A stretch of DNA of 44,388 nucleotides, taken from Clostridia bacterium. GTDB lineage: Bacteria; Bacillota; Clostridia; Peptostreptococcales; Anaerovoracaceae. The notes under the pieces are model-generated. The model was given only the letters and a program-made list of their open reading frames with translations, did not search any database and had not been told where the DNA came from. The stretch is taken from the NCBI GenBank assembly GCA_024402995.1, contig JAKSSR010000002.1, forward strand, positions 1 to 44,388, written 5' to 3'. Below, in pieces: positions 32,874 to 37,018 of the stretch (position 1 is its first letter; each line of letters starts with the position of its first letter). Position numbers and translations under genes: made by a program.

Positions 32874-33947
32874 TTATCTCTGAACGCGGGCATTGCCTGC
32901 GTAGATGGCCCAGACCTGCTTTTCGTCAGCAGGTTCGGCGTAGTCATTAAGAGAGCTTGCGGCAAGAGCACCGGTAGCCCAGCCGAACTGGATCCACTTG
33001 TCGGGAGTCCATTCCTTGAGAATGCCGTAAAGGAGACCGCCGGTAAATCCGTCGCCGCCTCCGATGCGGTCCAGAATATCGATTTCGCGAGGTTCTTCTA
33101 CAAACCATTCATCACCGGCAAGCATAATAGCGCCCCAAAGGTTTCTATTGGCAGAAAGAACTTCTCTCAGAGTGGTGGCAAAGACCTGAGCGTTGGGATA
33201 CTGGGCCTTGGCTTCTCTGATCATGGCCTTGAACTTATCGATCTTGGATGCAAGTCCTTCGCCGCCGGCTTCAGGTCCGCGGATCCCTAGGCAAAGCTGG
33301 AAATCTTCCTCGTTGCCCACCAGAATGTCTGCAATGGAAGCGATGCCCCTGAAGACGCCGGAAAGAAGTTCTTCATTGCCCTTCCAGAAGGTGGCGCGGT
33401 AGTTCAGGTCAAAGGAGACCAGAGTGCCGTGAGCATGGGCTGCCTGAGCCAGCTCAAGGCAGGCCTTGGCGGTGGACTCGCTCATGGCGGCGATAAGGCC
33501 GGAAATATGGAGAATGGCCACTCCCTCTTCACCGAAAATGCGCTCGGTGTCAAAATCGGCCGCGGTTATAGTGCGGCCGACTTCACCGGCTCTGTCGTTC
33601 CAGACTCTTGCTGCTCTGAAGCCAAAGCCGGAGTCTGCGATATTGAACTGGTGACGGTAGCCCCAGGGACCGCCCTGAGGAACTTCCAGACCTTCGAAAT
33701 CAATGTTTCTTGCGCGCAGTTGGCTCTTGATGAACATGGCGATGGGGCTGCCCTCCACAAACTTGGTCATGGCCAGGCACTTGTTGCCCAGACTGGAGGC
33801 AACGTTAAGAACATTGGTCTCAGCGCTGGTAGCCTGCATGTAGAAGCAGTTGCTGTTGTGGACGCTCATGCGGTTTTCCGGAGTGATCCTGACACCCATA
33901 CTGGTGGGGCAGGCCAGAGCATATTTTACATTCTTCCTGATTTCCAT
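32874..33947 (-). CDS. PfkB-family sugar kinase (KdgK-like; 2-keto-3-deoxygluconate or gluconate kinase)
   Basis: 357 residues, ribokinase fold. The N-terminal strand region has SAETNVLNVASSLGN; ILHISGLIAAMS and LVSFDLNYRATFW resemble KdgK-type kinases (the Arg in N-Y-R contacts the carboxylate of KDG); ADILVGNEEDFQ follows; and IDILDRIGGGDGFTGGLLYG is the PfkB anion hole and catalytic Asp, with Gly-Gly-Gly-Asp in place of Gly-Ala-Gly-Asp, a form I recall in KdgK-like members. The family phosphorylates KDG in the usual uronate pathway, but here mannonate dehydratase and KDPG aldolase are absent from the window and gnd is next to it, so gluconate 6-phosphorylation is an alternative. Good SD (AAGGAGG). 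Confidence 0.88.
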   Translation of the reverse strand: MEIRKNVKYALACPTSMGVRITPENRMSVHNSNCFYMQATSAETNVLNVASSLGNKCLAMTKFVEGSPIAMFIKSQLRARNIDFEGLEVPQGGPWGYRHQFNIADSGFGFRAARVWNDRAGEVGRTITAADFDTERIFGEEGVAILHISGLIAAMSESTAKACLELAQAAHAHGTLVSFDLNYRATFWKGNEELLSGVFRGIASIADILVGNEEDFQLCLGIRGPEAGGEGLASKIDKFKAMIREAKAQYPNAQVFATTLREVLSANRNLWGAIMLAGDEWFVEEPREIDILDRIGGGDGFTGGLLYGILKEWTPDKWIQFGWATGALAASSLNDYAEPADEKQVWAIYAGNARVQR

Positions 33948-33959
33948 GGTTTTACCTCC

Positions 33960-35837
33960 TTACTCAAGCAGACTGGCACCGGCATCAGCATCGGTGTAGA
34001 GACGTGCGTCGTCCTGCAGACGAAGAATGGTCGCGGGACACTTTTCTGAAATCTCGTCATTGATCATGTGACGGATGGCCTCAGCCTTGGTCTTGGCGGG
34101 GACGGAGCAGAAGAGGTGCTTTGCCTGCATAAGGCCGGGGACGGTGACGCTGAGAGCGTGGGTGGGAACCTGACTGATGTCCTCAAAGCAGCCGTCGTGG
34201 ACCTGCTGCTGACGGCAGACCTGTTCCAGTTCAACGATCTTGACCATCTTCGGATCGTTGAAATCTGCCACGGGGGGATCATTGAAGGCAACGTGACCGT
34301 TCTCGCCGACACCCAGAATGCAGACATCCAGAGGATTGTCGCGGAGCAGCTGGTCGTAACGCTTTGCTTCTTCTTCCGGATCTTCGGCGTTGCCGTTGAG
34401 CAGATTGATGGTTCTGAAGGGCTTGGCGTCAAAGATGGCGCGCTTCAGGAAGTTTCTGAATCCTGCGGGATGAGCGGCATCCAGGCCTACATACTCGTCC
34501 ATGTGGAAGGCGTTGATCCTTGTCCAGTCGATCTCGGTATCGGCGCAGAGCGCTTCCAGAGTTTCATTCTGGGAGGGAGCTGCGGCGAACATGACGTTCA
34601 GGGTCTCCTTTTCTTCCAGAAGTTTTTTGATGCACTCGACGGCCTCGCTGCCGGCGCAGTCGCCCATGGCTCTGCGGCTGTCAAAGACGCGGACATGGAG
34701 CTTATCACAGTAAAAATCTTTTAATACAGACATTGCTTTCTCCTCGTTATATTTAGATTTGATAAATGACAGGTACCGGATCCAGTCTTCGTGGATAAGG
34801 CCGTGCTTGCCGGCTCTTATGTGATACTGGATGCATCCGCTTCCGAAAGTATCTCCGGGAACGGGCATGCGGTCGGGGCAGACCAGGCCGCTTCTTTCAA
34901 AGCGTTCCCAAAGGGGCGAAACGCTGAGTGAAGTCAGGAACTCTGCTTCCGGATCAGCGCCGGGATCTTCTTCCGCACTGCCGACGCACATAAGTCTGGG
35001 AGCGATGAGAGACAGCAGGAAGTGCTGATCAAAGGGGCGTTCATCCTCTCTGTCCAGATAATCGAGGAAGGTTTCGCAGAACCAGTCCTTGCTGCCGTGT
35101 CTCACAAAGTCGGAAATGCGTTCGCCCTTGCCGTGTTTTGCGCAGGCTGCTCCGCCAAAGCCTGAATCGTTGCTGACGACACACCAGAAACGGAAGTCGT
35201 TGGCGGCAGCCCACAGGGCTGTCTTGCCCAGGCGGGAATGACCGACCAGAGTTACGTGGAAAGGATCAAGACGGGGGACAGAGGTGATCCAGTCCATGAC
35301 GCGGCTGCATGCATAGGCCCACAGACCGATCTTTCCGGTCACATCCGGCTCACGCTTTTCTTCCTTGGTGACGTTGACGAACTTTTCTGCCAGGCCTCTT
35401 GTAAAGTCGCTGTCGAGGGAATCCTTGACGACGTCGTGATAATTGAAATTGACGTAGGCAAAACCGCTGTCTATGATCAGCTGGATATCCTCGGTGCCGG
35501 GCTTTACGTCGCGGAAACGTATGCACAGGATAACAGGCACATCTTTGGCTCCGGCCGGGATCATCAGTTCCACCGGCATGGTGAAATTGCCGTTGGGTGT
35601 GGGGGAGGTCAGAGCGATCTTGCTGCAGTCCGCCTTGACTTCGTAAAGTTCATCGCAGGTCTCCAGAACCTCTGCAGTAGGTACTCCGCAGAACTTTGGA
35701 TATCTGCCGTAGCATTTTTCCTCAAGAAGTTCGCGGATCTTTTCCCGTTCTTCGCCGAATTCGGTGCCCATTTCCGCAGTCATCAGGCTAAGAGGCAGGT
35801 AGTCTTTTTCCTTAAGCCTCTCTTCTAAAAAACTCAT
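33960..35837 (-). CDS. Fusion: CE15 glucuronoyl-esterase-like domain plus NagB-like deaminase
   Basis: 625 residues in one uninterrupted frame. Residues 1-362 are a cytosolic alpha/beta hydrolase of CE15 type: VILCIRFRD, FAYVNFNYHD, nucleophile Ser201 in VGHSRLGKTALW, DSGFGGAACAKHGKGE, and GKHGLIHEDWIRYLSF near the end (candidate catalytic His). Residues 369-625 are a complete glucosamine-6-phosphate deaminase-like domain: FHMDEYVGL (base Asp), ILGVGENGHVAFNDP and VCRQQQVHDGCF. The D-G-H of classic NagB is N-G-H here and the later Glu is Asp, so the substrate may differ. A perfect internal SD precedes Met369. The 3' end of nagA overlaps this start (ATGA). Known roles: esterified glucuronate release, and deamination of amino-sugar phosphate. 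A fusion of these is unexpected. Confidence 0.85.
   Translation of the reverse strand: MSFLEERLKEKDYLPLSLMTAEMGTEFGEEREKIRELLEEKCYGRYPKFCGVPTAEVLETCDELYEVKADCSKIALTSPTPNGNFTMPVELMIPAGAKDVPVILCIRFRDVKPGTEDIQLIIDSGFAYVNFNYHDVVKDSLDSDFTRGLAEKFVNVTKEEKREPDVTGKIGLWAYACSRVMDWITSVPRLDPFHVTLVGHSRLGKTALWAAANDFRFWCVVSNDSGFGGAACAKHGKGERISDFVRHGSKDWFCETFLDYLDREDERPFDQHFLLSLIAPRLMCVGSAEEDPGADPEAEFLTSLSVSPLWERFERSGLVCPDRMPVPGDTFGSGCIQYHIRAGKHGLIHEDWIRYLSFIKSKYNEEKAMSVLKDFYCDKLHVRVFDSRRAMGDCAGSEAVECIKKLLEEKETLNVMFAAAPSQNETLEALCADTEIDWTRINAFHMDEYVGLDAAHPAGFRNFLKRAIFDAKPFRTINLLNGNAEDPEEEAKRYDQLLRDNPLDVCILGVGENGHVAFNDPPVADFNDPKMVKIVELEQVCRQQQVHDGCFEDISQVPTHALSVTVPGLMQAKHLFCSVPAKTKAEAIRHMINDEISEKCPATILRLQDDARLYTDADAGASLLE
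34731..34745 (-). promoter_or_regulatory. Internal ribosome-binding site and ATG for a stand-alone NagB-like protein
   Basis: GAGGAG (34740-34745) lies six bases before an in-frame ATG (34731-34733) inside the fused gene. Translation from here gives a 257-residue NagB-like protein, the normal length for the family. The SD is read as Glu-Glu in the fusion. Confidence 0.65.
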
Positions 35838-37018
35838 AAATTTACCTCCTGGCAGTTCTTATAGTCCTTATCAAATATTGTGAACACAGCCTTTTTGCCC
35901 TTTTCGATGGTGCCGTATTCTGTGAGTCCCATGTACTCCGCAGGAGTCTGAGTCCTCATTTTGACCACATCTTCAAGGGGGATCCCGGCTGCTGTCATAT
36001 TCTTCAGAATCATTTCGGAAGTCGCTATGCTTCCGGCAAAGGCGCTGCGGTCGCAGAGCTTGGCGACGCCATCCTCTATGATGTAAGGGACGCTGCCGTT
36101 GCTTTCCAGACCGTCGGTGCTGTCCAGACCGGCAAAGCGGACTGCGTCGGTGACCATGCAGACCCTGTCAGTTCCTTTGATCTTTATGATCATCTTCATG
36201 AGGGGCCCGGGCAGATGGCTTCCGTCGGCAATGGCTTCCACGTACATGTCATCCAGCAGATAGGCTGTTTCGATTATGCCCAGATGTCTGTAGCCGCCGT
36301 GACGGGTAATGGTAGACGTGCAGGAATAGAGGTGAGTGACGCACTCGGTACCGTGGTCAAAGGCGGTAAGAACATCCTCGTATTCCGCTGCGGAATGTCC
36401 CACGGAACCTTTGATACCGCGGGCCTTGAGGAAATCAGCAAAGGTCCCGTCCGGATCCAGCTCGGGCGCATAGGACCAGCGGGCAATGAGTTTGCCGAAA
36501 CGGTCCGCCAGTCTCTCGTACTCTTCCCTGAGAGGAGCGTGAAGCACGCTTGTATCCTGAGCACCGCAGGCTTCGGGAACAAAGTAAGGTCCCTCCAGGT
36601 GAGCGCCGGGAATGATCATTTCCCGACCTTCAGATTTTGCCGCGTAACTCTCCAGAGCCTCCAGAGACTTCCACAATGTATCGTAATCCGTGGCGGAAAT
36701 GGTCGGGTAAATTATGCGTGTACCGTGATCGAAATGCATTCTGCAGGCGCCTTCAATGGCTTCTGCAGTGCCGTCGATAAACTCATGGACTCCACCGCCG
36801 TGGCAGTGAAGTTCGATGAATCCGGGTGCTATGTATTTGCCGTCGAGATCGACAGTTTCCGCGTGAATGCCCGACTCAGAGGCGCTTGCCTCCCAGCGGC
36901 TGAGCGCATCGCCGTCCAATATTTCCTCGATCCGGTCATCCTTTACCAGCAGAGCCTTTCCGCAAATCTGCGTGCCGCCCGAGACGATGGTTCCGTTTTT
37001 GTAAATCTTAAGATCCAT
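35834..37018 (-). CDS. nagA: N-acetylglucosamine-6-phosphate deacetylase-like enzyme (NagA family, variant)
   Basis: 394 residues. Amidohydrolase fold with FIELHCHGGGVHEF (His-x-His), IPGAHLEGPYFVPEACGAQD (metal Glu), VGHSAAEY (His), THLYSCTSTITRHGG (His), AIADGSHLPG and MVTDAVRF (catalytic Asp). Known reaction: GlcNAc-6-phosphate to GlcN-6-phosphate plus acetate. Some loops depart from classical NagA: the T-H-L-F-N-A-M motif is THLYSCTS and the GxH loop lacks the usual Val-His-Pro. Combined with the non-canonical NagB next to it, a related N-acylated sugar phosphate is possible. SD GGAGGAG. The start overlaps the preceding stop by one base (TAATG) and its own stop overlaps the next ATG by 4 bp. 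Confidence 0.9.
   Translation of the reverse strand: MDLKIYKNGTIVSGGTQICGKALLVKDDRIEEILDGDALSRWEASASESGIHAETVDLDGKYIAPGFIELHCHGGGVHEFIDGTAEAIEGACRMHFDHGTRIIYPTISATDYDTLWKSLEALESYAAKSEGREMIIPGAHLEGPYFVPEACGAQDTSVLHAPLREEYERLADRFGKLIARWSYAPELDPDGTFADFLKARGIKGSVGHSAAEYEDVLTAFDHGTECVTHLYSCTSTITRHGGYRHLGIIETAYLLDDMYVEAIADGSHLPGPLMKMIIKIKGTDRVCMVTDAVRFAGLDSTDGLESNGSVPYIIEDGVAKLCDRSAFAGSIATSEMILKNMTAAGIPLEDVVKMRTQTPAEYMGLTEYGTIEKGKKAVFTIFDKDYKNCQEVNL

Follow-up and report, generated by a model that had tools for sequence, protein, structure and literature searches.

The fused frame and its operon

The window, which is the whole stretch of 44,388 nucleotides that was analysed, contains one open reading frame of 625 codons plus a stop on the minus strand (33960..35837), in which a CE15-like esterase (residues 1-363, 34749..35837, minus strand) is joined by the residues NEEKA to a NagB-like protein (residues 369-625, 33963..34733, minus strand). 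When this single 625-aa protein was compared with Pfam, both families were found on it, GCE_fung (CE15) at residues 84-287 (E 3e-22) and Glucosamine_iso at residues 389-606 (E 6e-17), which confirms the preliminary description of one continuous frame with the two domains. As judged from the sequence, the esterase half and the NagB half are each complete. The frame starts with an ATG behind the Shine-Dalgarno (SD) sequence AGGAGG (35845..35850, minus strand) and overlaps by four bases with a nagA-like deacetylase gene (35834..37018, minus strand), and a PfkB-family kinase gene lies directly downstream after a gap of 12 bases (32874..33947, minus strand).

These genes belong to a run of 21 genes from 43998 to 19474 (24.5 kb), in which no frame is broken and the 20 gaps measure -8 to 54 bases. 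The operon encodes a glucuronate isomerase, the nagA-like deacetylase, a KDG-kinase-like PfkB protein, a 6-phosphogluconate dehydrogenase and several Gfo/Idh/MocA oxidoreductases, and this predicted content fits the breakdown of a compound that contains both uronate and amino sugar. Within such a catabolic operon, the esterase would cut a uronate ester and the NagB would isomerise and deaminate an amino-sugar phosphate. The pairing of these two activities that had been proposed earlier is weak, being an association within the operon; the NagB subfamily with the FAAAPSQ and FNDP motifs appears in public records under two names, GlcN6P deaminase and 6-phosphogluconolactonase. Among 394 sampled genomes from the order of the window, the esterase was found in only one other. 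In the searched members of the window's own family, neither this esterase nor this NagB subfamily was found, the only matches being NagBs of about 22-32% identity. Hence, the operon (19474-43998) was probably acquired horizontally from outside the family, as far as this distribution indicates. Mis-binning of the contig was also considered and is not supported, its composition falling inside the range seen among the other contigs; GC climbs to 0.53 at the window's right end.

The esterase and NagB halves

The esterase half aligns with the CE15 structure 6gry up to its end (query residue 363 with chain residue 396 of 397; E 1.7e-49), and in 44 of 45 relatives from other genomes the free esterase ends 0-8 residues past the column of the 6gry end. 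Ser201, Arg202 and His345 are invariant in all 45 relatives. Of the catalytic residues named in the preliminary description, Ser201 and His345 were thus borne out; His349 was rejected as the catalytic base because this position is Arg in 40 of the 45. In the alignment with the OtCE15A chains, as read by eye, D224 was opposite the E of NESG and D291 opposite the D of SAEDD..ADP, which places an Asp at each of the two CE15 acid positions; OtCE15A has two redundant catalytic acids (PMC6937553). The half scores 80 bits with PF22244 (cut-off 27) and has both the Ser-Arg nucleophile motif and the catalytic His. In summary, family match, motif and acid positions identify it as a putative CE15 glucuronoyl esterase, for which ester cleavage is predicted. 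It has no obvious signal peptide, as read by eye from the N-terminus, and is therefore probably intracellular. This type of CE15-like esterase is common across the class, being found in 56 of 391 genomes at 1e-10, and may represent an unstudied intracellular branch of CE15 (34749-35837 and, for example, L119 and L122); two CE15-like esterases occur in tandem in another genome (G847:C59).

The NagB half has free relatives with 48-76% identity among the best 80 loci listed and, compared with the best 80, shows no departure at any of 67 near-invariant columns. It matches the superfamily profile PF01182 with 62.7 bits (cut-off 27) and falls below all NCBIfam equivalog cut-offs (132.5 versus 528 bits; TIGR00502, 123.2 versus 236.9). 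Because gnd is located two genes downstream, we considered whether this half is a 6-phosphogluconolactonase; this was rejected, as it also falls below the cut-off of TIGR01198 (53 versus 124.45 bits) and the scores favour the NagB type. D447 and H515 are kept and Asp520 occupies the E148-equivalent position, as it does throughout the subfamily, where the reference is E. coli NagB with D72, H143 and E148, which we take to be its catalytic residues. In this subfamily (33963-34733, L021-L100), the replacement of the TGSTP loop by FAAAPSQ and of FNEP by FNDP is invariant or nearly so, and its members adjoin nagA in dozens of genomes. One NagB-like gene is split across two frames and is probably a frameshifted copy (L073, 13201-14045). 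The genome of the window has another, canonical-looking NagB (G000:C24) and hence a free NagB made from the fusion may not be needed.

The joint and the separate genes of relatives

Between the two halves lie only five codons, AAC GAG GAG AAA GCA (codons 364-368), which appear to be the former intergenic spacer AACGAGGAGAAAGCA (34734..34748, minus strand). The order on this strand is an SD-like GAGGAG (34740..34745), the six bases AAAGCA and the internal ATG of Met369 (34731..34733), and the coordinates agree with the earlier account of a GAGGAG six bases before an ATG that is translated as Glu-Glu (Glu365-Glu366). In this order, the five codons look like an ordinary spacer between two genes. 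In the listed genes of the window there are 294 in-frame internal ATGs; an SD-like match of at least five bases precedes 15 of them, and GAGGAG at a distance of 4-9 bases is found at one only, the joint of the fusion. The nine closest free NagBs among the matches listed (L021-L029) have their own ATG exactly at Met369, most of them with an SD. By these comparisons, the internal ATG is the orthologous start of the free NagBs and is not explained by chance. Initiation at this site would give a product of 257 residues, the length that had been claimed, and it is plausible from the retained signals that free NagB is made. A hairpin predicted at the internal start (-40..+40, -9.8 kcal/mol) could weaken internal initiation. 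Searching the literature for gene fusion and internal initiation gave no specific result.

We looked for the fusion in other genomes and found the two genes separate in all relatives compared (221 loci), the nearest of which are distant (76% identity for NagB and 47% for the esterase). The 221 fetched loci contain 59 distinct frames that match the esterase and 116 that match NagB; both matches occur in the frame of the window only, and none of the other 58 esterase frames and 115 NagB frames holds both. Likewise, of all long open frames around the esterase hits, only that of the window has a NagB match. The wider search for homologous fusions that had been proposed was negative: a pattern scan that took one genome from each of 84,980 species gave none among the best 80 loci listed, about 1,270 whole genomes contained none, IMG/VR had no match and no plasmid record covered 80% of the query. 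Separate esterase and NagB genes are thus the usual state in the sequences compared, which suggests that the fusion is a lineage-specific event.

The free genes are found in several arrangements. In one locus (L047), an esterase gene, a GH109-like gene and nagB are consecutive in one run, with esterase and NagB of the subfamilies joined in the window, and so esterase and nagB share operons elsewhere; this GH109-like gene (Glyco_hydro_109_C, L047 1784-3004) hints at an N-acetyl-amino-sugar glycoside as the substrate. In the locus with the closest NagB among the matches listed (L021), a TIM-barrel gene, two Gfo/Idh-type genes and nagA come after nagB; these four genes are in the same order in the window, where nagB instead lies after them, behind the esterase. 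In another genome (G1159), a long apparent open frame with an esterase was rejected as a fusion, since it consists of two genes in the same frame, an esterase and an unrelated SGNH-type gene, with one TAA between them and the spacer INDEEKK-Met. By analogy, this arrangement is a pre-fusion state, one mutation away from such a fusion. A second esterase fusion, with another partner, may exist at L183 892-3144 (minus strand, G1135:C54), where a CE15-like esterase is part of a 751-residue frame; its C-terminal 250 residues contain MAAGMGSRYGG, a stretch that by eye resembles those of sugar nucleotidyltransferases, with no Pfam match at 1e-5.

Probable origin of the fusion and comparison with known systems

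We consider it likely that adjacent esterase and nagB genes became one frame by stop loss, giving a bifunctional product, and that the internal start can still be used. This agrees with the preliminary description of two neighbouring genes that lost the intervening stop and kept the SD and start, as the free relatives end and begin at the joint; it is from these relatives that we infer the loss of the esterase's stop. Of the nine codons that precede the ATG, six (360, 362, 363, 365, 366 and 367) would each become a stop by one substitution. A substitution may have removed the stop codon of the esterase or, alternatively, a small deletion may have removed the intervening sequence together with the stop, setting nagB with its ribosome-binding site against the last codons of the esterase. 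An ancestral TAG in place of GAG365 would have put the stop inside a ribosome-binding site TAGGAG, a form that is present upstream of several free NagBs (L043, L052 and L064, for example, among the matches listed). The main product would be the two-domain protein with two independent active sites intact, and initiation at the retained SD and ATG may, in addition, yield the free 257-residue NagB. NagB enzymes are oligomers, and mixed oligomers of the fusion and free NagB could form. The fuller proposal, that one gene with an internal start supplies both a bifunctional enzyme for a single esterified amino-sugar/uronate compound and a free NagB that enables mixed oligomers, is unlikely.

A sequencing or assembly artefact, in which a missed, extra or wrong base in the spacer hides the stop of the esterase and the genes are really separate, is unlikely, even though the fusion is known from a single draft assembly (120 contigs, 84% complete), the two genes are separate in all relatives compared and reading the spacer in the +2 frame gives two TAA stops. 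The esterase frame remains family-like up to its last expected residues (FIKSKY, compared with FIKSKMN in L151) and the NagB starts at its proper ATG, so that about 6-18 bases of the spacer are left in which an indel could lie; moreover, the 21 packed genes of the surrounding 24.5 kb show no other frame break, which makes such an error improbable. A very unlikely explanation is that of an established functional fusion, selected for channelling or a fixed stoichiometry, in which GAGGAG would simply be two Glu codons and no free NagB would be made. Both active sites are preserved, and NEEKA with the poorly conserved N-terminal lead of the NagB (MSVLKDFYCDK) could act as a linker; however, the fusion was found in no other genome searched (for the species scan, among the best 80 loci listed), the SD and start are undamaged, which would be expected if the fusion is young, and a shared substrate of the two halves is not known. 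Decay, with one half damaged by the fusion and the esterase being lost, is barely credible: the esterase keeps 48 of 53 near-invariant columns, its five departures being near the top of the relatives' range (0-7), and the highest identity that it reaches with a relative, 0.47, is one of the lowest such values, but all catalytic residues are kept, there is no stop or frameshift, and divergence alone explains the departures. In summary, this esterase-NagB pairing, so far unique, is probably real, and it most likely arose by stop loss, an ordinary mechanism.

If it is real, the locus would offer a clean snapshot of a young fusion of operon genes, in which the former ribosome-binding site can still be recognised where the genes meet and relatives show the unfused state. 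It would also link amino-sugar-phosphate metabolism with a CE15-like esterase, and our literature search found no paper on this pairing. The fusion, probably a local, lineage-specific event, leaves existing knowledge of either enzyme unchanged.

Like the bacterial CE15 glucuronoyl esterases (6gry/6gu8, OtCE15A 6syr and MZ0003 6ehn), the esterase half has the nucleophile motif GHSRLGK with Ser-Arg, the catalytic His in HIRAGKH and acids at both known positions (PMC6937553); it differs from them in lacking a signal-peptide-like N-terminus, as seen by eye, and in the fusion of its C-terminus to NagB. The NagB half shares with the NagB GlcN6P deaminases (2ri0, 1dea) the Glucosamine_iso family and the DEYVGL, GHxAFN and VPAxTKA motifs; unlike them, it has FAAAPSQ for the TGSTP loop, the Asp of FNDP for Glu and an esterase at its N-terminus. 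PRK02122/NF002557 (NagB-like, 653 aa) resembles the fusion in that it, too, is long and multidomain and includes a NagB domain, but there NagB is N-terminal and only that part matches (residues 361-622 to profile positions 11-275; 86.8 of 384 bits). Finally, the multimodular proteins with RfCE15 in CesA and CkXyn10C-GE15A (PMC11345330, PMC8280721) also join a CE15 in frame to another enzyme; their partners are polysaccharide-acting domains, whereas the partner in the window is a sugar-phosphate enzyme.
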